Virus record (IMG/VR): IMGVR_UViG_3300025598_000065
Location: 1-44,371 of that record
Direction: 5' to 3' (one strand)
Origin: a virus
Length of the DNA: 44,371 nt
Shown here: one piece after another, positions 1-44,371 of the stretch
Layout of the letters: each line of letters starts with the position of its first letter
How positions within the stretch are numbered: position 1 is the first letter of the stretch
Program-made: the position numbers and the translations under genes
The notes under the pieces: generated by a model
Told to the model about the DNA's origin: nothing
Seen by the model: the letters and a program-made list of their open reading frames with translations, nothing else
The model's database searches: none

Positions 1-520
1 GGGCAGATTTTTTTCCCCCCCCCCCCCAGTATTTACCAACAATCCAAATTCGCTTTCTAGAATGTGGAGCAAAAAGATTGTCGGCTCCCAGCACTCCCCA
101 TTTTGCATTATACCCCATTGAGGCCAAATCTCCGAGAACAACTCCCAGTCCTCTAGAAGTGAGCATTGGTGAGTTTTCCACGAATGCGTAATCGGGTCGA
201 ACTTCGCAAATGATTCGGAACATCTCTTTCCATAATCCGCTTCGCTCTCCCGTGATTCCTTCTCCTTGTCCAGCGACTGATATGTCTTGGCAAGGGAATC
301 CACCGCAAACGACATCAACTTTTCCTCGCCAGGGTTTTCCGTCAAATGTGCAGACATCATCCCAGATTGGAAACTTTGGCAAGATTCCATCTCGTTGCCG
401 CTGGAGCAAAACTCGTCGGCAATAAGGTTCAATCTCGACAGCACATACTGTGGTATGTCCGAGAAGAATTCCACCGAGGATTCCTCCCCCGACTCCAGCA
501 AAAAGGTGTAGCTCATTCAT
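1..520 (-). CDS. DNA (cytosine-5) methyltransferase, N-terminal part (gene crosses the contig junction)
   Basis: This encodes the AdoMet-binding and catalytic half of a C5 cytosine DNA methyltransferase, which would methylate phage DNA, probably to evade host restriction. The start ATG at 520-518 is preceded by AAAGGAGA. Visible motifs in order are: motif I FAGVGG near residue 8; motif IV GGFPCQDIS with the catalytic Cys of PCQ near residue 75; motif VI FVENSP (Ser in place of the usual Val of ENV); and motif VIII APHSRKRIWIVG near residue 160. The frame then enters the poly-G run (poly-C on the plus strand, 15-27) and leaves the contig. The C-terminal part is at the other end of the window. 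The function call is firm; the exact junction sequence is not, because the flank beyond the run is only 14 bases and differs slightly from the other end. Confidence 0.9.
   Translation of the reverse strand, partial: MNELHLFAGVGGGILGGILLGHTTVCAVEIEPYCRRVLLQRQRDGILPKFPIWDDVCTFDGKPWRGKVDVVCGGFPCQDISVAGQGEGITGERSGLWKEMFRIICEVRPDYAFVENSPMLTSRGLGVVLGDLASMGYNAKWGVLGADNLFAPHSRKRIWIVGKYWGGGGKKSA
15..27. repeat. Homopolymer tract, 13 C (poly-G in the methyltransferase reading direction)
   Basis: Thirteen consecutive C follow seven T. On the minus strand this is a G-tract directly after a Trp codon in the methyltransferase. The 14-base outer flank (gggcagattttttt) is a near copy of the flank at the far end of the window (gggccagatttttg), so both runs are probably the same genomic tract. 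The run length and flanks may contain sequencing error. Confidence 0.85.
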
Positions 521-528
521 GTTCTCCT

Positions 529-732
529 TTAATCCTCGCAAGCCTCTCCCACCTCATCCACATCCACTTCTTCTCCGCACTCTGGACATTCTTGAGGCCA
601 TACCTCTGCGGCTGATCCCTGCTCTGCGTCTTCCATGCGCCCATGCATATAGCGGTTTCGCGTTGGTGGCGTGTAGCGAACCTCAAAGTCGTGTTCGCAC
701 TCTTCGTTATGACAAGTGTAGTCGTAGTTCAT
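529..732 (-). CDS. Small zinc-ribbon protein (67 aa)
   Basis: An acidic small protein with two cysteine knuckles, CHNEEC near residue 7 and CPECGEE near residue 50, spaced like a zinc ribbon of the FmdB/rubredoxin-like type seen in many phages. Its stop (529-531) lies 8 bases before the methyltransferase start, and its start overlaps the stop of the gene upstream by four bases, so it belongs to the same coupled operon. The role is unknown; a small DNA- or protein-binding adaptor is possible. Confidence 0.7.
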   Translation of the reverse strand: MNYDYTCHNEECEHDFEVRYTPPTRNRYMHGRMEDAEQGSAAEVWPQECPECGEEVDVDEVGEACED

Positions 733-1235: not shown

Positions 1236-2936
1236 CTACGAGTCGTAGGTAGATTCCAACTGGTTGTCAAACACAAATCTTTCCCAATCTTCATCGGAGT
1301 CTGCAAGGCTTCCCACGCTGTTGCCAAGCCCCCAGTTCGTGACCATGACTTCTACGAGCAAGGCCAGAGCATCAGCCCTGTCAGGGGAGTTGCCTTTGGT
1401 ACGCTTCTTCAAATCCTTCTTGCTTTCCAAAAGCATCTTCTCATTTTTCAGCGTGTAGATACGAGCGCATAGCTCTCGGCTAGTCTGGTCATCTAGGCCG
1501 CGCATACGCCCCGCCATGATGATCGTGCGGATCTGTCCCCAGAGTTGACTCACGCGATTGGCGTAGACTTGCTTTGCAGGACGATCATCTTCAATGCTGA
1601 TAGGATGCTCTGTAGCTCCTCCTCCGAAACTCACCCGCACAAACCCTGTCTGCCAGCGTTGCGAGATGATGTCGGCTATTCCTGCTCCTGCACCAGTTGC
1701 ATCAATCGCAAAGTCCTCTGGCTGGATTCCTCGACGAGTCAACTCTGCGATAGTCTGGTCTGCCACTTGGTAGAAGAGCGGATAGTTCTCATTCTCTGTG
1801 AGCGTGAGACGAACGATGTCGGTGCATTCAATGATGAGATCCCCATCCATTGCCTTGCCCACTCTCGCAAAGCGCAAGATACAATCATCGCCATCAGTCG
1901 TGAATGCCGGGTCAAGAGCCGCTATCTGCTTGATGCCTCCTCCAGCCCATACCACGCCCTCCCTAGCTCTCCCCTCATTGATCATCGCTTGGTCAAGGAT
2001 GGTATTTCTAGCTCCGCTCTTGCTCCACATTCCCCTCACATACGAGTTCCATTCTAGAGATCCTTCCCCGAAGTTCTTCTTGATCGTGTCGATATTGTCC
2101 TGTCCAAATAGGTATGGGTAAATCAATCGCCCCGCCTTCACATTCGGTGATTTCAGTCCATCAAACCTCACGCACACCCCTGTCTTGGTTTCCCAGAACT
2201 CATCATCATCTTGGATAGATCCCCATCCCATCTTGGGTTCGCAGAATAGGCCATGAGGGTCGAACTGGGACGATGCGTTGGCGATAGCAATGAAGCGATA
2301 GAAGTCAGTACCTACTGCAAGGTTGGCGCGAGCAGAGAAGATGGCAGGGTTAGTCTGCGCCGCCTCGTCCGCTACGATCACTACGCGAGGGATGTGAACG
2401 CCCTGCAACTTACCCACAGCTTGCTCAATCGCCCCGCTATCCACTGCTAGGGCTATGATAGCTGATCTATCATCTCCCTTCTGGAACTGGATCTTCGTCT
2501 GCGAGTCCACCACATTCAGCCCAAACAAGGGATGAACAGGGCGCACAAACTTCATCATCTCTGCCCAGATACGACCGCGCAGGGAGGGAACAGTCGTAGA
2601 AGTAAGAGCAATACGAGTTCCCATCGGGCAAGCCAGAAACTCCACAAGGGAGAGCAAGGTGAAGGTGAAGGTTTTTCCTGCCGCCGCGCATCCCGTCACG
2701 CCAATTTCGTCGTAGTTCGTCCATGCCCACAACGCAAGCTCGTTCCAATCATTCCAGCGCGACATCACATCGGGCCAGAGCATTGTGAGAACATGCTTGA
2801 TATGCTGACCCCGACTCAAGCCGCTGAACCGACTTGGATCGGGATCTTTCACCATCAGCAACTCAACCTCTAGTTGCGTTGCCTTTGGAAATGCTGATAG
2901 GTCTAGGCCGTATGTCTGTAACTTCATACTCCGCAC
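1236..2936 (-). CDS. terL: Terminase large subunit (ATPase and nuclease)
   Basis: The packaging motor that cuts concatemeric DNA and pumps it through the portal. The N-terminal ATPase has a Walker A-like GCAAAGKT near residue 98, and a Walker B followed by the catalytic acid in VVIVADEAAQ near residue 186. The C-terminal RNase H-like nuclease shows three acidic positions: LDPAF near 343, AIDATGAG near 417 and PDRADAL near 521. At 566 residues it has the usual length. The apparent start is GTG at 2936 with GAGG four bases upstream, overlapping the preceding gene by 13 bases. An ATG at 2927 is the alternative start, but its GGAG would be only two bases away. Confidence 0.95.
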   Translation of the reverse strand: MRSMKLQTYGLDLSAFPKATQLEVELLMVKDPDPSRFSGLSRGQHIKHVLTMLWPDVMSRWNDWNELALWAWTNYDEIGVTGCAAAGKTFTFTLLSLVEFLACPMGTRIALTSTTVPSLRGRIWAEMMKFVRPVHPLFGLNVVDSQTKIQFQKGDDRSAIIALAVDSGAIEQAVGKLQGVHIPRVVIVADEAAQTNPAIFSARANLAVGTDFYRFIAIANASSQFDPHGLFCEPKMGWGSIQDDDEFWETKTGVCVRFDGLKSPNVKAGRLIYPYLFGQDNIDTIKKNFGEGSLEWNSYVRGMWSKSGARNTILDQAMINEGRAREGVVWAGGGIKQIAALDPAFTTDGDDCILRFARVGKAMDGDLIIECTDIVRLTLTENENYPLFYQVADQTIAELTRRGIQPEDFAIDATGAGAGIADIISQRWQTGFVRVSFGGGATEHPISIEDDRPAKQVYANRVSQLWGQIRTIIMAGRMRGLDDQTSRELCARIYTLKNEKMLLESKKDLKKRTKGNSPDRADALALLVEVMVTNWGLGNSVGSLADSDEDWERFVFDNQLESTYDS

Positions 2937-3796
2937 ATACCCTCACACTCATTTCCCCATAGCATACCTTGCCCTCTCTCTTCGTCGGTAGAGAAGTCAA
3001 CTTCATCTAATGGAATACAAGACTTGTGCAGGAATGGAATAGACTTGAATCCGCGTTCTTTATCCTTCTCAAATTGAACAGCCTTCTCAAATTGAACAGC
3101 CTTCTCAAATTGAACAGCCTTCTCAAATTCCTCTGGCTCTTCATTCTTTAATCGAATCCATTCATGGTCTGAATGATATGGGCAATAAACGCAAGATGAT
3201 CTAGGGGGAAGAGGATAGTTTTTAGCCTTCATCCATTGGAGGCAGTTGTGCCTCTTCATATCCATCTCAATCAAAGGCCACCTGTGCTGACACCATGCTT
3301 CCCTGCTTGGCTTCATGCGCTGAATCTCATCGCAAGAAATGCCAATCCATTGCGTCACCTTGATTTCTTTATAACCTCTCGGAACCTTGCAGAACTCTTT
3401 AACGAATCTTGTAATTGGAACAATCTTGAAGTCAGTTGTGCAAACCCTCCTGCCCATTCCTCTTTCACCTTCATCGTCTTTAGTGTGAAATGGAATCAAA
3501 GATCTGGCGTATTCCCTTCCTTCTTTTTTTGTTGTCCTTATCCGCAATGATTCTTCTGTCAGGCTTCCTGCTGTTACTCGGTAGATTGGAATTGGAAAAG
3601 GGCTTCTTGACACCTCTTCTTCTAGCCAATCTAACCATTTATATACGCTTTGTGGTTCGGCTTGGGTATCTGAAAATACTGCGGCATCTGGTAGTGGCGT
3701 AATTTCTCCATGAGCCGCCATGAGCAACATGGTGCTGGACTGAACTCCCGCCCCAAGGGAGATAATATTAAACGGGGTAGGCGGTGGTGTTTTCAT
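2924..3796 (-). CDS. PAPS reductase-like / PP-loop adenine nucleotide hydrolase protein
   Basis: Belongs to the phosphoadenosine-phosphosulfate reductase-like PP-loop family. It has the nucleotide-binding SLGAGVQSST near the N-terminus, then VFSDTQAEP, and a later cysteine pair CVYCPYHSD that may bind metal. Phage members are common, but their substrates are mostly unknown; sulfur transfer to nucleic acid or a nucleotide-modifying reaction is possible. I place the start at ATG 3796 (290 aa) because an upstream in-frame extension would cross a perfect hairpin (3804-3825) whose 3' arm holds the ribosome site. The C-terminal third contains a tandem FEKAVQ repeat. It lies between the scaffold candidate and terL, an unusual place for an enzyme. 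Confidence 0.8.
   Translation of the reverse strand: MKTPPPTPFNIISLGAGVQSSTMLLMAAHGEITPLPDAAVFSDTQAEPQSVYKWLDWLEEEVSRSPFPIPIYRVTAGSLTEESLRIRTTKKEGREYARSLIPFHTKDDEGERGMGRRVCTTDFKIVPITRFVKEFCKVPRGYKEIKVTQWIGISCDEIQRMKPSREAWCQHRWPLIEMDMKRHNCLQWMKAKNYPLPPRSSCVYCPYHSDHEWIRLKNEEPEEFEKAVQFEKAVQFEKAVQFEKDKERGFKSIPFLHKSCIPLDEVDFSTDEERGQGMLWGNECEGMCGV
3065..3129. repeat. In-frame 18-bp tandem repeat (3.6 copies) inside the PAPS reductase-like gene
   Basis: The unit cttctcaaattgaacagc occurs three times perfectly (3065-3082, 3083-3100, 3101-3118), with a partial fourth copy to 3129. Because 18 is a multiple of three, copy-number changes add or remove the six residues FEKAVQ without breaking the frame. 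Perfect identity of the copies implies recent expansion or ongoing slippage. Confidence 0.9.
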
Positions 3797-3803
3797 GCAA
3801 GAA

Positions 3804-3825
3804 GCCTCCCCATTGCTGGGGAGGC
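3804..3825 (-). promoter_or_regulatory. Hairpin overlapping the ribosome site of the PAPS reductase-like gene
   Basis: GCCTCCCC and GGGGAGGC form an 8-bp perfect stem with a 6-base loop on the minus-strand transcript. The GGGGAGG of the 3' arm sits 8 bases before the ATG at 3796, so folding would hide the ribosome site. A short TTCTT follows, so a weak attenuator is an alternative reading. Confidence 0.6.
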
Positions 3826-3840
3826 CGTCAAGCATCAATC

Positions 3841-32201: not shown

Positions 32202-32885
32202 CTAGGCTAGGATCTTTTCTAGCTCCTCTTTTATCTCAGGAGATAGCCCTCCCCAGCTCCACTTCTGCATCACATACGTCTCCATCTCGCTAGGATGGAG
32301 CCAAGCGAAGTTTCGATGGTAGTTCCTATATGCCCAAGCCCCAAACGCATTAAACTCGCTAAAGCGGCCTTTAGGACGCTTCCTGAGCCACACAGACAAA
32401 TCCTCCTGATGGCAATTGAACATGAAGTCCCTAAAATCCCTAAGAGACTGCTGAGTGAAGACAAACGGATGCCTCCTCATAAACTCAAACTCTGGCATAT
32501 GCTTCACTGCCTCCTGAGTGATGGGATACCAAGGAGACTCACTCTGAGGAACATCCTCGTACAACCACACTGGATTTCCCTCCCTAAAGAAATCCTCCGG
32601 CTTTACTTCTTTCGTGAACACGCAATCACTATCCATCACCAAGATATGAGGAGACCTGCAATACCAATCAGCATGGAGCTTGTCATTTTGTTGCCCAATA
32701 TAGTCATCATCCCACCGCTTCACCAAATGCACCTCCGCATCACACGGCGGCAATAGAGGGTAATCATCGGCAGGAATACAGATATGAACTTTACCAAATC
32801 CACGAGCATACTTCTTGATGCTCCTCAAGCAATACTCAAGCCAATGGAAATCCCCGTGATAGCTTCTGATAAATATATCCATCAT
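32202..32885 (-). CDS. Glycosyltransferase-like protein, DUF6492-type (227 aa)
   Basis: Begins MMDIFIRSYHGDFHWLEYCL and has LVMDSDCVFTKEV near residue 87, a D-x-D metal/nucleotide-sugar motif following a hydrophobic strand, as in GT-A enzymes. Further on FNAFGAWAYRN and LHPSEMETYVMQKW fit the acceptor side of a short glycosyltransferase. It is the third of three consecutive glycosyltransferase-like genes that overlap by four bases. They may act in sequence on one substrate. Confidence 0.7.
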   Translation of the reverse strand: MMDIFIRSYHGDFHWLEYCLRSIKKYARGFGKVHICIPADDYPLLPPCDAEVHLVKRWDDDYIGQQNDKLHADWYCRSPHILVMDSDCVFTKEVKPEDFFREGNPVWLYEDVPQSESPWYPITQEAVKHMPEFEFMRRHPFVFTQQSLRDFRDFMFNCHQEDLSVWLRKRPKGRFSEFNAFGAWAYRNYHRNFAWLHPSEMETYVMQKWSWGGLSPEIKEELEKILA

Positions 32886-33508
32886 GTTATTTTCTTTTCC
32901 GGTATGCCGCAGGCATCTGTGTCAAGGTTAAGCCCTGCATTGATCGCATTCCTATCAGCAATGGGATTATCATGCCTTGGATGGAACACGCACTTGAGTT
33001 CAGTGAAGTCATAAGCCTCTGGAACAAATTTGTTCCCCCAGCTCAAGATGGCAGAGTCGTCATTAAACCCAAACTTGCACATCTCTTTGTTCATAGCCTT
33101 TCTCCACATCTCCCAAAATTTCTGATTCCCAACAAAAACTGCCACTCCATACGGAGCTTCCACCACTCCGGTTTGCTCATACCTCGGATAGTCGGAATAA
33201 TTGAAGTTATAACGATGACTCGTAGCCCAGCAAGGCTCCTGCTTCCCTCTCACAAACTCCACCACCTTCTTAATCTTGTCCGTGAGAATGATGTCAGAGT
33301 CAATATGGATTCCCACTTCGCAATTCAAAAGCTGATCCACAAGCTCATAGCAATACACCTTCCCTTGCTTCTTAATCCTTGCAATATCATATCCGAGCTT
33401 CTTCCAGCTCTCTAAGGCCCATTCCTGATTATCCAGATGCTCTTGGGTGCAGGGGAATCCACTCCCCTCCCATCTAATCGAACAAGAAATTCTTGTGGCC
33501 TCTTTCAT
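32882..33508 (-). CDS. Glycosyltransferase-like protein (208 aa)
   Basis: Contains GIHIDSDIILTDKI near residue 67, with the D-x-D element at the end of a beta strand, preceded by ELVDQLLNCE and followed by an aromatic region (SHRYNFNYSDYPRYEQTG). It differs from both neighbours in sequence, so it is not a simple tandem duplicate. The catalytic base cannot be assigned. ATGA overlaps on both sides show that the three genes form one translation unit. Confidence 0.65.
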   Translation of the reverse strand: MKEATRISCSIRWEGSGFPCTQEHLDNQEWALESWKKLGYDIARIKKQGKVYCYELVDQLLNCEVGIHIDSDIILTDKIKKVVEFVRGKQEPCWATSHRYNFNYSDYPRYEQTGVVEAPYGVAVFVGNQKFWEMWRKAMNKEMCKFGFNDDSAILSWGNKFVPEAYDFTELKCVFHPRHDNPIADRNAINAGLNLDTDACGIPEKKIT

Positions 33509-34113
33509 TTTTTAATAAGCCCCAGATAATGCTTCAACACCTTCACCCTTGTCAAGTAATCCCATCCCATCGCATGAAGCACCCAATCTCCTTCCTGCCA
33601 CTTGGAAAGCACCGAATTATCCTGATGACAGCTATTCATCACCCTAGCCCCCACCACATTCAACACATCCCTTAATCCCCCAGCTTTCCAGAGATCAGAT
33701 AAATGATTTTGCCAAAGAAACCTCTTGTGCTTCCAGATAGGCTCATCCCTCACAACTAAATCAAGAATCCTAAAAGACTGCTCACTATTGGGGAATATCA
33801 TCACGTCATTATTAAAAACATCATGATTGAAATGCTCCTCCGATATGGTAACCCTCTTCTCTTCCCCCTGCACATCCTCAATCCTCTTCTCAAAGTTGGT
33901 GAAGATCGTATCGCATCCCATCGCCATCACCAAATCATTCTCTCCAATCCTCTGCCTCAATACCTCAAAAAACTCCATATAAGCCTCGTAATCGAATTTG
34001 ATGTTCTCAAACCCATATCCATGCCTATCACAATACTCTCGCTTATTTGGGGCAGTGAGATCATCCCATTCCCTTATCTTATCTGAATGATTGGTCAGTA
34101 CCAAGATTTTCAT
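33505..34113 (-). CDS. Glycosyltransferase-like protein (202 aa)
   Basis: The start MKILVLTNHSDKIREWDDLT and the motif LVMAMGCDTIFTN near residue 62 fit GT-A/galactosyltransferase-like proteins; the Cys-Asp-Thr occupies the usual D-x-D place. The second half contains NDVMIFPNSEQS and an aromatic VLHAMGWDYLTR end. First gene of the three-gene cassette. The start lacks a clear ribosome site and lies 35 bases inside a small possible upstream frame. Confidence 0.65.
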   Translation of the reverse strand: MKILVLTNHSDKIREWDDLTAPNKREYCDRHGYGFENIKFDYEAYMEFFEVLRQRIGENDLVMAMGCDTIFTNFEKRIEDVQGEEKRVTISEEHFNHDVFNNDVMIFPNSEQSFRILDLVVRDEPIWKHKRFLWQNHLSDLWKAGGLRDVLNVVGARVMNSCHQDNSVLSKWQEGDWVLHAMGWDYLTRVKVLKHYLGLIKK

Positions 34114-38148: not shown

Positions 38149-38496
38149 TTATCGTCCTGCCCTGTACCTTGCCAAGTCTAATTGATTAGGGCTTAACTCT
38201 TCACGAACGGGAGACTTCGTGGAGCTTTCTTGACAAGATTTAGAATCCGTGGCATCTTTCGATTCGTCACGAATAGACCCGCCAGCGCACTTTTGCACTT
38301 CGTTCCGCTTTTTCCATGCTTCAGTCCGCACTTCTACGGAGCCAGGAGGCATCCCACGCGACACGAAGAAGCGATCACAAGCCTCTCCCACTGTTTTCGA
38401 TAGCTTCCAGAGGTAGTTATCCCAATCATTTTCTGTTCGGCGAGTTTCAATGTGGCGAAACTCATTATGAGGGACGTAGTTTTTATTCTTTGCCAT
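38149..38496 (-). CDS. Hypothetical protein, 115 aa
   Basis: The start MAKNKNYVPHNEFRHIETRR (ATG 38496) is chosen because the longer frame overlaps another small gene. It has an N-terminal basic helix, then WDNYLWKLSKTVGEACDRFF, and a disordered tail rich in Ser, Lys and Glu. Last gene of the minus-strand early-type operon before the terminator. No family recognised. Confidence 0.6.
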   Translation of the reverse strand: MAKNKNYVPHNEFRHIETRRTENDWDNYLWKLSKTVGEACDRFFVSRGMPPGSVEVRTEAWKKRNEVQKCAGGSIRDESKDATDSKSCQESSTKSPVREELSPNQLDLARYRAGR

Positions 38497-38497
38497 T

Positions 38498-38614
38498 TTA
38501 TGATGCTTTTTTGTTTGATTTAACTTTCTTAAAGATCCTGTCCCATCCTTCTTGGTAAGATTTAGATACGGCTCCCGTACGATTAGGAGACGCAGAATCA
38601 ATTCGGCGTTGCAT
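38498..38614 (-). CDS. Very small basic protein (38 aa)
   Basis: ATG 38614 to TAA 38498: MQRRIDSASPNRTGAVSKSY followed by QEGWDRIFKKVKSNKKAS. It overlaps the previous gene by 17 bases and is followed one base later by the next start. The GWDRIFKK end resembles the end of the 29-aa protein near the portal. ATG 38623 is an alternative start adding three residues. Confidence 0.5.
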   Translation of the reverse strand: MQRRIDSASPNRTGAVSKSYQEGWDRIFKKVKSNKKAS

Positions 38615-38918
38615 CTCCTTCATGCGAGGAGATAAGTGATTTCGTTCGCTTCTTTCGCTCATTTTGTTTAAGTTTGCTAATATGATTGTTTAGTTGGTTT
38701 ATTTTCTTTCCTAAATCTATGATGATATTCCTTAATCTTTTATTAGAACTATCTTGTAAATCAAGTAAATGCCTTAATGATTCTATTTTAAGTTTTTCTT
38801 TGTAAAGTTGGTTTTCAATCCTGCAACAGAAACGGGCTGAAACAGGTTTGTTTTTGTTTTCGTGTGATCCATAAAGTCGGCGCAATTCGCACTCTGTTTG
38901 AGTAAGGCGTTCGCTCAT
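38598..38918 (-). CDS. Coiled-coil protein, 106 aa
   Basis: Most of the protein from residue 35 to 90 is a Lys/Leu-rich coiled coil (LRNIIIDLGKKINQLNNHIS). The N-terminus contains a single Cys pair (RFCCRIEN). It has a good ribosome site AAAGGAGG before the ATG. Function unknown. Confidence 0.6.
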   Translation of the reverse strand: MSERLTQTECELRRLYGSHENKNKPVSARFCCRIENQLYKEKLKIESLRHLLDLQDSSNKRLRNIIIDLGKKINQLNNHISKLKQNERKKRTKSLISSHEGDATPN

Positions 38919-38951
38919 TTGGCCTCCTTTAGCTTCTGGATGTTTCTTGGT

Positions 38952-39173
38952 TCATTCTAGGTTTTGGTGTCTGCGTTGATATGCTTCTTCGTCCCAGCCG
39001 CTTTCTAACTCAGCGATGCGCTCACGGAGCCTCTCGACCTCGGCTTCTAGTTTGAAGTTCATTTCTCCGACTGGTTCACAAGCATAGCATGACCCTTGGC
39101 ATCCCCGTTTAAGGCGATCAAGTTCCTCCCTGAGCCTTGCGACATCGTTGTCGGGTGTCTGTGGTTGGTTCAT
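38952..39173 (-). CDS. Small coiled-coil protein with a Cys pair (73 aa)
   Basis: Two coiled-coil segments (VARLREELDRLKRG and LEAEVERLRERIAELE) flank CQGSCYACEP, so the protein could dimerise and bind metal. It overlaps the stop of the upstream 50-aa membrane peptide (ATGA). Related short coiled-coil proteins are common among phage early genes. Confidence 0.6.
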   Translation of the reverse strand: MNQPQTPDNDVARLREELDRLKRGCQGSCYACEPVGEMNFKLEAEVERLRERIAELESGWDEEAYQRRHQNLE

Positions 39174-39322
39174 TTTCTGAATGTTATACTGATAGTTAGT
39201 AAAAAAGCAGAAGCCCAGTATAGGCTATCCTGCCAACTCCTCGCCACTCCCCACCTAATCGCGTTAGCGAGATAGATGAAGAGTAGGAGAAAGTTAAGCA
39301 ATCTAGGATCGCTCCAAATCAC
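39170..39322 (-). CDS. Small membrane protein with GTG start (50 aa)
   Basis: GTG 39322 overlaps the stop of the gene upstream as GTGA, and its own TGA overlaps the next ATG as ATGA, so both ends are fixed by coupling. The protein has a hydrophobic helix near residues 8-21 (LLNFLLLFIYLANA), a short amphipathic link (RWGVARSWQDS) and a second hydrophobic segment (LYWASAFLLTISITF). Two membrane helices are likely. Function unknown. Confidence 0.55.
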   Translation of the reverse strand: MIWSDPRLLNFLLLFIYLANAIRWGVARSWQDSLYWASAFLLTISITFRK

Positions 39323-39657
39323 TCGGTGATGATGCTAGAGGGCTTCTTCGGCTCGTTAATCGTGTTCTTAAAGAACTCGTCAATGTCGCAAATGATGCAC
39401 TTCGCGCCCTCTTCATGCGTGGAGGGGTTGTGATCTTCTGCGGCGGAAAGCATGATTTGCTTAATCCCGTCGAGGAATGCATAGGCTTGGTATGCTCCAG
39501 CGAGGAACTTTGCCCAACGAATCGCCTCCTCTGGGGAGCAGAGAGAACTGATGGAACAAATTTCCAGCCCTTCGGCATCCACGATTCGGTCGGCATCTGC
39601 TTTGATAGGGAACTTGAACTCTATGGGATTGTCGTTGATGATCATATTAGATTGCAT
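39319..39657 (-). CDS. Hypothetical protein, 112 aa
   Basis: An alpha/beta-like sequence with IEFKFPIKADADRIVDAE and EEAIRWAKFLAGAYQAYA, ending in a polar tail. The start at 39657 overlaps the HTH gene stop by 11 bases; ATG 39645 directly after that stop is equally possible. No family recognised. Confidence 0.6.
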   Translation of the reverse strand: MQSNMIINDNPIEFKFPIKADADRIVDAEGLEICSISSLCSPEEAIRWAKFLAGAYQAYAFLDGIKQIMLSAAEDHNPSTHEEGAKCIICDIDEFFKNTINEPKKPSSIITE

Positions 39658-39853
39658 AGGAGGCGAATTTCTTGCCAGTTTTGCGGTTGTGTTTAGTTGT
39701 TGCGGTGATTTTAATCCCCATCCTCTTCAGATCGGCAATCCTGGCTGCGAGTCGGAAGCAACCAAACTTGTTGAGGGCTTCGATCGCCGTGAGGCTCTTG
39801 CCTTTCACGAGATGGTTGTAGATACGGACTGACTGACTAGTTTTGTTTTTCAT
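39647..39853 (-). CDS. Small winged-helix/HTH DNA-binding protein (68 aa)
   Basis: Matches the small phage helix-turn-helix group (HTH_39-like): SVRIYNHLVKGKSLTAIEAL, then KFGCFRLAARIADLKRMGI, the turn and recognition helix, and a basic beta-wing KHNRKTGKKF. Probably a transcriptional regulator or a DNA-binding accessory protein. It lies in the early-type minus-strand operon. Confidence 0.75.
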   Translation of the reverse strand: MKNKTSQSVRIYNHLVKGKSLTAIEALNKFGCFRLAARIADLKRMGIKITATTKHNRKTGKKFASYAI

Positions 39854-39858
39854 TGGTA

Positions 39859-40104
39859 TTATCGGGTTGAATTGCGGGTGATGTAGTCTTCGGTGATGGG
39901 TCGTGTTAGGCGATCCATATTAGCTTTCCATCGAGCGTATTCAAGCTCTCTTTCCATGCGCCTCTGGACTTCTAGTTGCTCCTGGGCAATGGCGAGTTGC
40001 GCGGCGGCATAACTATTCCCATATGCAGGGACAGTGTAGGGCCATTGAGTAGCCTCCTGAGCGGAGGCAGTGGCGATTAGAGCGATTGCGATTAGTTTCT
40101 TCAT
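39859..40104 (-). CDS. Secreted or periplasmic small protein (81 aa)
   Basis: A short signal peptide (MKKLIAIALIATASAQ, likely cleavage after ASA) is followed by a Tyr/Pro-rich stretch and an amphipathic helix (AQEQLEVQRRMERELEYA). Export to the periplasm suggests a role at the cell surface, for example interference with later infection or lysis. It overlaps its upstream neighbour by four bases. Confidence 0.6.
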   Translation of the reverse strand: MKKLIAIALIATASAQEATQWPYTVPAYGNSYAAAQLAIAQEQLEVQRRMERELEYARWKANMDRLTRPITEDYITRNSTR

Positions 40105-40295
40105 CGATTATAGTTAATTAGTATTGAATCAATTTCGTCGTGGATTTGTTTTGTTTTCCCCAGAGAGTTAAGTGTTTTAATCTTTTCTAGAGTTTGGAGC
40201 ATGAGATCAAGCTCGGCTCGGAGATGATTGATGATTTCTTCGTTGTTCAAGGACGTGCTGATCTTGGTGGCGTTGAAGGTGGTGTTAATTGCCAT
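40101..40295 (-). CDS. Hypothetical helical protein, 64 aa
   Basis: Start at ATG 40295, which overlaps the stop of the upstream gene by 11 bases. Residues 20-60 form a leucine-rich amphipathic helix (INHLRAELDLMLQTLEKIK). No family recognised. Confidence 0.55.
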   Translation of the reverse strand: MAINTTFNATKISTSLNNEEIINHLRAELDLMLQTLEKIKTLNSLGKTKQIHDEIDSILINYNR

Positions 40296-40503
40296 TTTCA
40301 AATTTGTGCTGGGCGATTTCCTTCTTGGTTTCCTCTAGGGAGATCTTGTTGAGCATCATCGTGCATTTTAGGGGATGATCCCTGTAAAACACGGCAATGC
40401 TTCTCTCGGTCTTCTGCCTCACGGCTTCTGCAATGAGGTAGGCTCCAATGAAGTAGGACAAGAGCAAAGCTCCAAGGGCAGATGCGGCTACTAAAATGAT
40501 CAT
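40285..40503 (-). CDS. Small membrane-anchored protein (72 aa)
   Basis: Start at ATG 40503, an ATGA overlap with the upstream stop, which fixes it over the longer frame. Residues 1-26 form a transmembrane helix (IILVAASALGALLLSYFIGA), followed by a charged cytoplasmic part with KTERSIAVFYRDHP. Function unknown. Confidence 0.6.
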   Translation of the reverse strand: MIILVAASALGALLLSYFIGAYLIAEAVRQKTERSIAVFYRDHPLKCTMMLNKISLEETKKEIAQHKFENGN

Positions 40504-40772
40504 AAAAAGATAACAGAGCTTTTCTTCATGCAAACATCATGAAAGTCTTTAATGATCTCTTTCCACTCGGCAAGCTCTTTGTGAGCTTGAGATGTTCTGT
40601 TTTTTTCAACAGCCAATTCTCCAACCAATTTTTCGCATTCCATCTTTTTAAGAATAAGATTGTGCCTAGCTTCGTTAAGCTCCCGTTCTAGTTGTGCCGC
40701 AAAATTATAGGAGACATCTCCACCTGCATCTACGGCTTCGTCAGTTCTTGGTGTTGGGTTTTCTTGGCTCAT
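40500..40772 (-). CDS. Coiled-coil protein, 90 aa
   Basis: Residues 25-75 are a continuous coiled coil (LERELNEARHNLILKKMECE). The opening MSQENPTPRTDEAVDAGG is a frequent beginning of small phage proteins of this group (PTPRTDEA). Overlaps both neighbours by four bases. Confidence 0.6.
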   Translation of the reverse strand: MSQENPTPRTDEAVDAGGDVSYNFAAQLERELNEARHNLILKKMECEKLVGELAVEKNRTSQAHKELAEWKEIIKDFHDVCMKKSSVIFL

Positions 40773-41044
40773 AGTCCCATCTTGCTCATGGCTTCGTTCA
40801 TCACGCGATCTTGCTCCGCGAAGATGGCATCCAGTCGATTAAAGCCGAATGATGATGGTTGGCGAACAGGAGGCTCGCAGAGTGCTTTCTCAAGTATGAC
40901 AAGATCATTGTAGAGAGATCGCGCCCTAGCGGTGCTGATGCGGATCTCGGAGAGGCCGTGATGCTCGGCGTGTTTGATGGCGCATTTGAAGAGCGCATCG
41001 TAGGAAGCTACGAGGCTCGCGGCTGAACGGAGTGTTGTTTTCAT
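40769..41044 (-). CDS. Hypothetical protein, 91 aa
   Basis: A helical protein with a basic middle (HHGLSEIRISTARARSLYND). It is the first gene after a hairpin-containing 220-base gap and may begin a transcription unit. No family recognised. Confidence 0.55.
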   Translation of the reverse strand: MKTTLRSAASLVASYDALFKCAIKHAEHHGLSEIRISTARARSLYNDLVILEKALCEPPVRQPSSFGFNRLDAIFAEQDRVMNEAMSKMGL

Positions 41045-41110
41045 TTTTGTTTGCAGAGCATGGTTGTATGCTCTAGAGGCGAGTCTTTCAGATTCTTTAT
41101 GAGTGTCAAC

Positions 41111-41153
41111 AAAAAAACGGAACCAAAGCTGGAGGGTGTTTCCCCACCCCGTT
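41111..41153 (-). terminator. Probable terminator between the DUF6321-like gene and the downstream operon
   Basis: On the minus strand GGGTG/CACCC (41149-41134) is followed by a second small CCA/TGG hairpin and TTCCGTTTTTTT. An outer AACGG/CCGTT pair closes the structure. A TTGACA (41109-41104) starts directly after the T-tract, so termination and re-initiation may be combined here. The remainder of the 41045-41263 gap also holds a CTGGAG/CTCCAG hairpin and no gene. Confidence 0.45.
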
Positions 41154-41263
41154 GATTACAACGCCCAGCAATGATTCCGCTTTAAAAGATGCGGTGTTCA
41201 ACAAAGGAGAGACAGAAGGCTCACCCGGTCTGGAGTTCTCCTCCAGCTCCTATTCCGCAAATA

Positions 41264-41500
41264 CTAGCTCTTGCGAGACTTGGTTCCGCTGCACTTCCAC
41301 TTTGCTCTTGACAAGCGCAGTGGGCTATTGGGGTTCTTCGCGGCTTCTGGATGCTTCTTCATCTGCCCTGCGGAACGAGCGCAATAGGAATCTCCCTTGG
41401 CTGTCCCTGGCTTGATGGTCGCGCCCTTCTGTCCGTAGCGAACAGTCTTCTCGCGCCCCGTCTTGGGGTTGGTAACTTTCTTGGAGAATTTCTTTTCCAT
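41264..41500 (-). CDS. DUF6321-like basic protein (78 aa)
   Basis: Start at ATG 41500, one base after the SSB-like stop; the longer frame is a shadow. The sequence KKVTNPKTGREKTVRYGQKG and KGDSYCARSAGQM, with NPNSPLRLSRAKWKCSG, matches a small basic phage protein family I recall as DUF6321. Strongly basic with two Cys, so nucleic-acid binding is possible. It lies immediately after the helicase and SSB-like genes. Confidence 0.65.
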   Translation of the reverse strand: MEKKFSKKVTNPKTGREKTVRYGQKGATIKPGTAKGDSYCARSAGQMKKHPEAAKNPNSPLRLSRAKWKCSGTKSRKS

Positions 41501-41501
41501 G

Positions 41502-41768
41502 TCAAAAGTCGATGTCTTCGTCTTGTGGCTGATAGCCATTTCCCTTGGCTTTGCTGTGGGCATTGAAGCTATTGCCGCCCTTCTTCTCACGGGGAGGGCC
41601 AACCTTGATGGACAGGAATGAACTTCCTGCCTTGCTGGTCTTCTCCCAGATGCTGATCTCATACTGCTTACCCTCTACGTCGAGAGGGCCGCTCCACTTT
41701 GGAGCCTTGGGGTTTGCGTTGTCCCGCTCAAATGCGGCTCCGCTATTGGTATTATCGTAGTTGCTCAT
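41502..41768 (-). CDS. SSB-like / small OB-fold protein (88 aa)
   Basis: The middle part (PLDVEGKQYEISIWEKTS and GSSFLSIKVGPPREK) looks like a short OB-fold-type beta barrel as in the DUF736 group. The protein ends in an acidic tip, QDEDIDF, very like the last residues of bacterial SSB that bind partner proteins. It overlaps the helicase stop by four bases. A single-strand-binding role is likely by context and tail, but the domain is too short for a classical SSB. Confidence 0.55.
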   Translation of the reverse strand: MSNYDNTNSGAAFERDNANPKAPKWSGPLDVEGKQYEISIWEKTSKAGSSFLSIKVGPPREKKGGNSFNAHSKAKGNGYQPQDEDIDF

Positions 41769-43060
41769 TGGTTGTGTTGTTTTATCTCCCGTTCCTCAAA
41801 CCGCAAGTATTGCGGCTGGAAAGTGAGCGGGAAAGATGTTCTACTACAATTCCTAGCGAGTCGGATGTCAAGCCAGTATCCCATCTCGTCAGGATTTTGT
41901 TTTTTCTTGCTATCTTCTTCTGCCTCTTGGTATCGGATAACATAAAACATATCGGCATCGTGCATGATGGCATCAGACTCACGGGCAGTTCCGTTGCGGT
42001 TAAGCTGACAGAGGGCAATCACGCTAATCTGAAGCTCCTTGGCAATTAATTTAAGGCAACGGCTTACCTCGGCAACTTGTCTTTCACGATTGTCTTTGGA
42101 GTTGGATGCTGATACAAGCTGTATGTAGTCCACGATAAGGCACTTGATACCATGAGTTGCCACAAGCCTTCTTGCCGCCGCCATTATTTGTAATGGGGTG
42201 ATGGAGCTTTCATCGCGTATCCAGATCGGGAGTTTGCTGACTTGATTGACCCCGAAGCTGATCTTCTCCATGTCTTGCTTGCTTGGATTCTTAGAAAGAA
42301 TAGAAATGTCAACTCCTGTGACTGAAGCAACCATGCGGTCAATCAACTCCCCACTACTCATTTCCAAGGACAATATGCCCAAAGGATTGCCAGCGTCAGC
42401 GGTTCGATACCCGAAATTAAGAGCCAATGCGGTTTTTCCTCCCTTGCTAGGCGCACCTAGAACGATTAGCTGACCCGGACGCATTCCTCCCGTATGTTCA
42501 TCCAGCGATGGGAATCCGTAGGTCAACCCCATCAATCTTCCCTTGTTCTTGACGATTTCTTCGTATTCATTGATACGCTTCATTGCCGCCTCGCCAATGG
42601 ATTCAATCTTTGTTCCTGACTCTGCCTCTGACGCTATAGCTACAAGGGCTTTTTGCACAGTTTCAGATAGCTCCCCGTTCACTACAGGATTCTTTGCAGA
42701 ATCAATAATGCGCTCTGCGCCAGCAATAGCAAGTCGAGCAGTATGGTAGTGACGGATGATGGAAAAATACTCCTCATGGTTGTGGCTTGTGCTTACATGA
42801 GAGTATATCGCCGCAACTTCTGACGGGCCACCGCAATCATCCATTAGATTATTGACCTCCAACCATTCTGAAATGGTTATGAGATCCACGCTCTTGCCCT
42901 CTTTCCATAGGGCTAGAAGCCCTTTAAACAGGTTTTTATGAGCAGGGTGATGGAAGAGAGCGGCCTTTAGATGATCGGCGTGTATATCGAGGATGGAGGG
43001 ATTCTGAAGGGCAGAGGAAAGGAACGCTCTCTCTGCATCTAGGTTAGCTGGGAGACTCAT
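41765..43060 (-). CDS. dnaB: Replicative DNA helicase, DnaB type (431 aa)
   Basis: Hexameric 5'-3' helicase for replication. An N-terminal helical domain (DAERAFLSSALQNPSILDI) is followed by the RecA-like ATPase core: Walker A GAPSKGGKTALAL near residue 203, GILSLEMSSGELIDRM near 230, Walker B CLIVDYIQLV near 310 and the sensor region VIALCQLNRNG near 345. The length is normal. ATG 43060 overlaps the upstream stop (ATGA); the frame extends three codons further to 43069. No primase domain is fused, and no phage DNA polymerase is visible, so host polymerase is probably used. Confidence 0.95.
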   Translation of the reverse strand: MSLPANLDAERAFLSSALQNPSILDIHADHLKAALFHHPAHKNLFKGLLALWKEGKSVDLITISEWLEVNNLMDDCGGPSEVAAIYSHVSTSHNHEEYFSIIRHYHTARLAIAGAERIIDSAKNPVVNGELSETVQKALVAIASEAESGTKIESIGEAAMKRINEYEEIVKNKGRLMGLTYGFPSLDEHTGGMRPGQLIVLGAPSKGGKTALALNFGYRTADAGNPLGILSLEMSSGELIDRMVASVTGVDISILSKNPSKQDMEKISFGVNQVSKLPIWIRDESSITPLQIMAAARRLVATHGIKCLIVDYIQLVSASNSKDNRERQVAEVSRCLKLIAKELQISVIALCQLNRNGTARESDAIMHDADMFYVIRYQEAEEDSKKKQNPDEMGYWLDIRLARNCSRTSFPLTFQPQYLRFEEREIKQHNQ

Positions 43061-43269
43061 AGGCTCCATACCTCCTCTCCGTCTTCGTTAAGGCCAATCA
43101 GGCTGGCATCATAACCAAGATGCTGAAGCAATGAGATGAGCCTATTATGCTCACACGGGCCAGATGCTACCTCCTCTCCATTCACAGAAATTATTTCTCC
43201 ATATTCGGAGCAACATCCGTCACCACACTCATACGAATATGGCTTTATTGTAATGGCAATTTTTTTCAC
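43057..43269 (-). CDS. Hypothetical Cys-containing protein, 70 aa (GTG start)
   Basis: The start is best placed at GTG 43269, which overlaps the exonuclease stop as GTGA; the longer frame would run into the basic tail of that gene. The central YECGDGCCSEYGEI has three cysteines, a possible metal site. Its end overlaps the helicase start. No family recognised. Confidence 0.6.
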   Translation of the reverse strand: MKKIAITIKPYSYECGDGCCSEYGEIISVNGEEVASGPCEHNRLISLLQHLGYDASLIGLNEDGEEVWSL

Positions 43270-43979
43270 TTCTTCTTCCTCCCACGGGGCTTTGGCTCCG
43301 GCTTGGCGGCCTTCATCGCCCAATAGAGATCAACTTGCTTCTGGAAGACTACCCATTCTTTGGAAAGATCCTCCTTCCAGACTACTTCAAAGTCGCCTTC
43401 CTCTTCCTTGCCAATTCTTACGATTGCGTGAGAGGTGATTTGGTTGATTGCATTAAATCCATTGACCTCTTGATTCTCGTTCCACAACGCCGCATAGCCA
43501 GCGGCCTGCCTCCAATAGCTCTCCGAGATTTTCTTGGAAGTCTTAAAATCCATCAGCACATGATCCCCATTCTTGCGTTTGGCGATCAGATCAATGGTTC
43601 CTCCGTAGCGATAAAGCTCATTAACAAGCTGAATCTCCGTGGCTACGACCTGAAGGTCTTGCGTCTCCCACCATTCAAGGAACTTATGATAGCACACAAG
43701 AGCCTTATCCCGCTCCTCCTGCGTGTAGTCGGATAAGTCGGCTACTTGGTTGTTGAGGAAGCATTCGATGTAGAAGTGAGCCAGCGTACCAATATCGCAA
43801 GCCTCCTTTGATACATCGCGGTAGTTCTTTCCCTCGCATCCTAGCTTCCAAGCCCAATGGATGAGTGCCCCTGCATCGTCTCCGATCTTGCTGATCGTAG
43901 ATCCTCCAGGCACTTGCGTTCCATCGGATAGGAAATACTTCTGATGCTCTTTGTGTCGGTCTAGTTTTACTGATTGCAT
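43266..43979 (-). CDS. PD-(D/E)XK exonuclease, Cas4/RecB-like (237 aa)
   Basis: Residues 60-170 carry the nuclease core: GTLAHFYIE near residue 67, then YGGTIDLIAKRKNGDHV and LMDFKTSKKI (Asp and the x-Lys of the DxK) near residues 128-148. The basic C-terminus contains PKPRGRKKK. Probably a 5'-3' exonuclease that supplies ends for the ERF annealing protein, although the two genes are apart on the linear map. The start overlaps the methyltransferase stop in one frame (by 13 bases). No ribosome site is visible, so it may depend on translational coupling. Confidence 0.85.
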   Translation of the reverse strand: MQSVKLDRHKEHQKYFLSDGTQVPGGSTISKIGDDAGALIHWAWKLGCEGKNYRDVSKEACDIGTLAHFYIECFLNNQVADLSDYTQEERDKALVCYHKFLEWWETQDLQVVATEIQLVNELYRYGGTIDLIAKRKNGDHVLMDFKTSKKISESYWRQAAGYAALWNENQEVNGFNAINQITSHAIVRIGKEEEGDFEVVWKEDLSKEWVVFQKQVDLYWAMKAAKPEPKPRGRKKK

Positions 43980-44371
43980 ATTTTTGTGTTAGTTAAAATT
44001 TTGAATGCTGTTGAAGCCACGATTGGAACTTGTGCGTTTCCAAGGGCTTTAAGTCTGTGAACCCTATTGGGAATGCCATGAGCCACTCGACCCACTCTGG
44101 ATTCAATGCCCCATATTTCTTTGATACTGTCATCGACAGGTTGATTTGCTTTCCCTTCTCCAATCTCCGCTGGATCGAAAGAGAACCAATGTGACCCCTG
44201 TCTTTGTAATCGCTTGCTTGGGGTGTAGGAAACACCATCATATGAAGGACAGCATGGTCTAGTCTGTCCTTCTCCCTGCTCCTCCCATTCTTTCTGGTTA
44301 GGGCATTGATATTTGATCCTTTGCTCATACAGGCTGTCGGAGTGGGCCAGATTTTTGCCCCCCCCCCCCCC
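43967..44371 (-). CDS. DNA (cytosine-5) methyltransferase, C-terminal part, canonical frame
   Basis: Following the G-run, this frame reads KNLAHSDSLYEQRIK, a variable target-recognition part, and then the canonical closing motifs IX/X of C5 methyltransferases: ESRVGRVAHGIPNRVHRLK directly followed by ALGNAQVP, with the invariant Gly-Asn of motif X. It ends at TAA 43967, overlapping the exonuclease start by 13 bases. A G-run of length 1 mod 3 (for example 13) joins it in frame to the N-terminal part at 520-1. The full protein would be about 305 aa, a usual length for the family. Confidence 0.8.
   Translation of the reverse strand, partial: GGGGGKNLAHSDSLYEQRIKYQCPNQKEWEEQGEGQTRPCCPSYDGVSYTPSKRLQRQGSHWFSFDPAEIGEGKANQPVDDSIKEIWGIESRVGRVAHGIPNRVHRLKALGNAQVPIVASTAFKILTNTKICNQ
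43993..44371 (-). CDS. Alternative methyltransferase C-terminus in an overlapping frame
   Basis: The second open frame after the G-run reads KIWPTPTACMSKG, MVFPTPQASDYKDRG and GALNPEWVEWLMAFPIG, and ends KPLETHKFQSWLQQHSKF. Repeated PTP-x-A elements and the LNPEWVEWLM ending are themselves hallmarks of another large group of phage methyltransferase C-termini. A G-run of length 2 mod 3 (for example 14, as counted at this end) would join it to the N-terminal part. It can also start at an internal ATG (44328) as a separate 111-aa protein. Which product is made cannot be told from the sequence. Confidence 0.55.
   Translation of the reverse strand, partial: GGGGAKIWPTPTACMSKGSNINALTRKNGRSREKDRLDHAVLHMMVFPTPQASDYKDRGHIGSLSIQRRLEKGKQINLSMTVSKKYGALNPEWVEWLMAFPIGFTDLKPLETHKFQSWLQQHSKF
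44358..44371. repeat. Homopolymer tract, 14 C, at the right contig end
   Basis: Fourteen C end the contig, preceded by gggccagatttttg, which nearly repeats the left-end flank. The run length at a contig edge is not reliable. Confidence 0.85.

Follow-up and report, generated by a model that had tools for sequence, protein, structure and literature searches.

We analyzed a virus record of 44,371 bases (hereafter the window), in which runs of C on the + strand, read as G on the coding strand, lie at both contig ends within a methyltransferase gene. Two overlapping reading frames, A and B (the latter being A+1), are found at this locus, with the following features:

1-14, minus strand: damaged copy of the sequence past the tract (GGGCAGATTTTTTT at the start vs GGGCCAGATTTTTG at the end)
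15-27, minus strand: G tract at the left contig end, 13 G (C13 on the + strand, direct reading)
28-516, minus strand: N-terminal part of frame B, MSYTFLLESGEESSVEFF..SWKTHQCSLLEDWELFSEIWPQWGIMQNGECW.., an open ORF that matches phrog_1008 (E=4e-24)
28-520, minus strand: N-terminal part of frame A, MNELHLFAGVGGG..GGFPCQDIS..ENS..RKRIWIVGKYW, up to the tract (PF00145, phrog_363)
524-530, minus strand: AAAGGAG (direct reading), the likely ribosome-binding site common to the A and B starts
43967-44357, minus strand: C-terminal part of frame A, with the variable region and motifs IX/X (GRVAHGIPNRVHRLKALGNAQVP); stop codon at 43967-43969
43993-44357, minus strand: C-terminal part of frame B, AKIWPTPTAC..FPTPQAS..LNPEWVEWLMAFPIGFTDLKPLETHKFQSWLQQHSKF; stop codon at 43993-43995 (phrog_26627, phrog_1008)
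44358-44371, minus strand: the same G tract at the right contig end, 14 G (C14 on the + strand, direct reading)

When the two parts of frame A were joined, profile searches matched residues 3-163 of the protein to Pfam PF00145 (E=4.9e-30) and residues 1-292 to phrog_363, and motifs I, IV (PCQ), VI (ENS), VIII and IX/X of the C5 cytosine DNA methyltransferases could be read in it. Judged by its sequence, frame A is a phage-type C5 cytosine DNA methyltransferase. The tract lies at the boundary between the catalytic N-terminal half of this enzyme and the half that contains the variable region and motifs IX-X, and it codes for glycine (or proline) alone whichever frame is read. An earlier note on this DNA had described a poly-G tract in a methyltransferase gene, and this tract is indeed present at both contig ends. 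The canonical end that the note had read after the tract was found as well (GRVAHGIPNRVHRLK..ALGNAQVP), as were the PTP/LNPEWVEWLMAFPIG ending one frame over from it and the early TGA that closes the third frame. Searching the window with an exact pattern for the SWKT region gave no match, the pattern being too strict.

On the N-terminal side of the gene, the earlier note had described the methyltransferase frame, but a second frame is open there too (516..1, MSYTFLLESGEESSVEFF..SWKTHQCSLLEDWELFSEIWPQWG). The +1 offset between the two frames is identical on either side of the tract, and the LNPEWVEW end is therefore part of a second full-length ORF, B, whose ATG start codon is located 4 nt downstream of the ATG of A. 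The AAAGGAG sequence is seen ahead of these starts in the window; many relatives have no clear ribosome-binding site ahead of the B start. Frame arithmetic indicates that a tract of n=13 (n=1 mod 3) leaves both proteins intact, A with 298 aa and B with 288 aa. When n=0 mod 3, A continues into the B end and the B product is cut short; when n=2 mod 3, it is A that is cut short, and B continues into the A end. Three tract states had been predicted before, and the assignment of the canonical enzyme to n=1 mod 3 stands (with B intact too); the outcomes proposed for n=2 and n=0 mod 3 have to be swapped.

Bases 1-14 are a garbled repeat of the sequence beyond the tract, which indicates that the contig ends overlap within the tract and that the gene crosses the junction. 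The genome in the window is probably circular or circularly permuted. Both runs read as the 13 and 14 bases previously reported, counts that are unreliable because of the garbled contig start. In another metagenome, a contig of 6,221 bases (L189) shows 100% identity to window positions 38150-44370 and likewise starts inside the tract, and a 90%-identical relative (L002), assembled without a break across the site, contains G13. Other viral contigs searched for the N-terminal side of the window's virus gave no match. A scan of the whole window showed that the C13 and C14 runs are the sole G or C runs of at least 7 anywhere in the 44 kb.

Elsewhere in the window, a perfect tandem repeat of an 18-bp unit (3.7 copies, 3064-3129) is located inside the ORF at 2924-3838, where it encodes FEKAVQ repeats; changes in its copy number would preserve the frame. 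Three adjacent ORFs at 32202-34113 resemble glycosyltransferase-type proteins, the first of which (32202-32885) gave weak, below-cut-off Pfam matches only, to Stealth_CR2 and DUF6492.

We scanned viral contigs for G9+ or C9+ closely ahead of the TGGCC-AC-CC sequence of WPTP. This retrieved 52 contigs, 39 of which carry the tract at the same site of the same gene. Two of these are L189, from the virus of the window, and L171, the contig of L002; the other 37 have G10-12 or C9-18 at this site. Most relatives have no tract. At least 8 tract changes were placed on a tree of 144 methyltransferases, with tracts in several well-supported separate clades, some of G and some of C; as reconstructed on this tree, a long tract has been gained repeatedly at one site. 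Tract length also differs between assemblies with flanks that are 100% identical over 900 nt (500 before and 400 after the tract), as in L202 (C12) compared with L211 and L212 (C13). In another identical-flank pair of assemblies, L208 (C12) and L220 (C11), the tract is the sole difference. Among 34 classifiable contigs (L149 included), both proteins are intact in 15, A is joined to the B end in 10, and A is truncated in 9. The intact state at this WPTP-adjacent site (15/34) does not significantly exceed one third (P=0.13). Comparison with relatives, among which all three states occur, supports the proposal that this phage C5 methyltransferase contains a frame-shifting hypermutable homopolymer.

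A second hotspot was found in the same methyltransferase family, with poly-G placed directly after PCQDI (the tract just after CAAGACAT, L366-L445). At least 79 of 80 loci among the matches listed are the same gene, and the tract comprises 9-17 G. Among these matches listed, A is in frame in at least 50, shifted in at least 24, and at a contig edge in at least 5. The intact state is in excess here (50/74 among the matches listed, P=2e-9), and near-identical contigs occur in differing states.

These observations bear on the alternative that the tract lengths reflect errors of sequencing or assembly in a gene that is stable in nature. Contigs do break at the tract, and the garbled left end of the window is a sequencing failure at that place. 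In addition, homopolymer counts in metagenome assemblies are error-prone, and some of the length differences may be miscounts. However, miscounting does not explain the presence of tracts of 10-15 nt, separate clades have repeatedly gained long G or C tracts at one and the same codon position, and the independent second hotspot in the same gene is enriched in in-frame lengths among the matches listed. We consider an artefact unlikely. Homopolymers can also cause slippage of the ribosome or of RNA polymerase, and a slippery site of this kind, as homopolymers in general are able to form, would produce chimeras from one DNA length with no switch at the DNA level. This explanation appears highly improbable because the tract is missing in most relatives, can consist of G or of C, and varies in DNA length between otherwise identical contigs.

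To follow frame B across relatives without selecting for it, we used genes fetched by A peptides alone, 77 of which contain the complete gene start. The +1 frame is open across nearly the whole methyltransferase in 76 of these 77 viral relatives, the exception being L040, in which it is open for 142 codons. The +2 frame is open across the methyltransferase in none of the 77. In 28 diverged genes, shuffling that preserved codon usage within each gene predicted 168 stops in the +1 frame and 51 were observed; in the control +2 frame, 441 stops were observed and 394 expected. We also permuted whole codon columns among positions with the same residue, which preserves ancestry. In this test, B-frame similarity reached z=+5.0 and that of the control frame C z=0.7, indicating that the third-base patterns follow frame B and not frame C. 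Close pairs of genes were compared in a third test, comprising 43 independent pairs with 1109 A-synonymous changes and using as null identical codon changes at randomly drawn sites. New stops in B numbered 3 among these 1109 changes when 17.2 were expected, and 3 vs 9.5 expected when only A-selected loci were considered. The control frame C showed no depletion (67 stops vs 53 expected). An unmatched version of the close-pair count (2 vs 48) was in part due to codon preference, and the matched test is preferred.

The start of B is conserved as well. Its ATG is retained in 74 of the 77 relatives, including 17 loci in which the A start is shifted upstream, and codon 2 is AAT in 73 of 76, AAT accounting elsewhere for 41% of Asn codons. 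As a negative control we analyzed Pfam-selected ordinary chromosomal C5 methyltransferases from Pseudomonas, in which +1 stops were at the null level. At A identities below 40%, similarity in the B frame reached z=26 and in frame C z=7.5, most of these loci having been chosen by B similarity. At short range, the amino-acid constraint on B is weak (z=1.4 in close pairs), suggesting that the B protein evolves fast. Relative to flanking genes, close pairs showed a mild shift in codon-position ratios (position 3, 0.583 vs 0.616), a difference that is not decisive. Altogether, these comparisons of aligned genes indicate that frame B is kept open by evolution beyond chance. The earlier note had named a lack of homologues or of purifying selection for one of the two frames as part of what would refute its reading; homologues were found for both frames and both are maintained, so this refutation fails.

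These tests also allow the weighing of a shadow ORF, in which the +1 frame would be open and similar merely through the conservation of A and its codon bias, with the tract switching the methyltransferase alone. Consistent with such an origin, B is found over methyltransferases exclusively, the short-range amino-acid constraint on it is weak, and shuffled A genes contain fewer +1 than +2 stops. However, the depletion of stops holds with codon usage and the type of codon change fixed, the third-base patterns are organised by B and not by C, the B start is kept where that of A moves, and ordinary C5 methyltransferases show none of these signals. A mere shadow of A is thus a quite unlikely explanation of frame B.

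Isolates that infect Pseudomonas, Acinetobacter, Salmonella, Klebsiella, Vibrio and Mycobacterium also have frame B open, as do methyltransferases of Leptospira plasmids and of a Microcystis phage. In bacterial genome contigs from many phyla, all 66 classifiable B matches overlie a C5 methyltransferase located in the -1 frame, and B apart from a methyltransferase was found in none of them. Three candidates for a free-standing B (L119, L129 and L135) were ruled out, the methyltransferase being present in the -1 frame there as well. B matches phrog_1008, a family labelled DNA methyltransferase, and this label has probably been carried over from A. Searches with B against Pfam, NCBIfam and solved structures gave no match. 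Structure prediction was not confident, either from the single sequence (pLDDT 31) or from a 27-sequence alignment (pLDDT 50, pTM 0.23), and a fold search with the predicted structure returned nothing significant.

Several individual records show particular arrangements. The public record of Pseudomonas phage phPA-G (L162, 1505-2233) leaves the methyltransferase frame unannotated and lists a hypothetical protein in the B frame instead. Two loci (L272, 1427-2215, and L281, 2410-3195) contain one internal stop in frame A and have frame B open gene-wide. In E. coli PCP07014 (L491, 901-1662), the methyltransferase is annotated as a pseudogene with an internal stop, and a stop also interrupts frame B close to that position. 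In a Leptospira plasmid (L489, 901-1587), A enters a B-type ending without a long G or C tract, which resembles a small indel in a decaying copy.

In the earlier note, the two endings were regarded as alternatives for the C-terminus, or target-recognition part, of a single enzyme. This idea is not borne out, because the LNPEWVEW end is that of a distinct, overlapping ORF, which tract-free relatives have at full length. A three-state switch in which the chimera of A with the B ending acts as an alternative methyltransferase with another recognition part can still be weighed, since that state is found in 10 of the 34 tract-bearing contigs (L149, for example). Yet tract-free relatives have the B ending in the full-length B frame and the canonical end in A, the chimera is devoid of motifs IX and X, and the sole tract-free join of A to the B ending that was seen is the one Leptospira plasmid copy, apparently a decayed gene. 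With motifs IX and X missing and no established tract-free form of the chimera, ON/OFF switching is favored, and a three-state enzyme seems improbable.

In our reading, the locus is probably a phase-variable phage C5 methyltransferase that is overlapped over its full length by a second probable protein-coding gene, B. The broader proposal, to which we give somewhat better than even credence, is that of an ancient overlapping gene running along nearly all of the phage-type C5 methyltransferase gene in phages and prophages of many bacterial phyla, a gene so far missed or classed as a DNA methyltransferase, with tracts that evolved repeatedly at two fixed sites and switch both proteins. Replication slippage would alter the tract length n. 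Both proteins would be made whole by a phage with n=1 mod 3; at the other two lengths, A and B would be lost together, a chimera and a truncated product being made instead. Slippage would thus yield one intact state in three. The WPTP-adjacent tract site is at the junction of the two halves, where a repeat would harm either protein little. If tract length varies within phage populations as it does between assemblies, a clonal population may be split into methylated particles, protected from restriction, and unmethylated particles, safe from modification-dependent nucleases, and B would be switched along with the enzyme.

Similar systems are known in bacteria. In Helicobacter canadensis, C-terminal phase variation occurs by poly-G tracts (PMC2823697). 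As in the phage gene, a tract of 10-14 G lies late in the coding region, its length changes the C-terminus, and one case may fuse two ORFs (PMC2823697). Those genes are bacterial, however, and their alternative ends are mostly of a few residues, reaching up to 104 (PMC2823697), whereas the frame entered in the phage gene is a full-length overlapping gene, so that two proteins would switch at once. Switching by homopolymers is also well known from phasevarions, in which poly-C or poly-G tracts are present in type III methyltransferase genes (PMC3711429). These share with the phage locus a homopolymer in a DNA methyltransferase gene, in their case with reversible ON/OFF switching by slippage. 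In the known cases the enzyme is a type III adenine methyltransferase of the host, unlike the phage C5 enzyme described here, which has the tract mid-gene and is overlapped by B. Overprinted overlapping genes of viruses have been reviewed (PMC8227390), and they resemble A and B in that one DNA stretch read in two frames gives two proteins, one of them an enzyme of a known family. The present overlap differs in being nearly gene-long, in occurring across phages of many bacterial phyla, and in lying under a putative tract switch. The PHROG database contains both families, A as phrog_363 (methyltransferase) and B as phrog_1008 (labelled DNA methyltransferase), but keeps them as two, and we found no description of their origin from the same DNA in two frames. 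Our search of the open-access literature turned up neither a phase-variable C5 methyltransferase from a phage nor an overlapping gene in a gene for such an enzyme.

Descriptions of phase-variable methylation come mainly from bacteria. Phages appear to use it too, with tracts that have re-evolved at the same places. When metagenome contigs of these viruses are read, it should be kept in mind that they break at the tract and that a frame-shifted copy of the gene may represent natural variation and not a pseudogene or an error. Should B prove to be translated, a gene has been missed or mis-annotated in many phage records.
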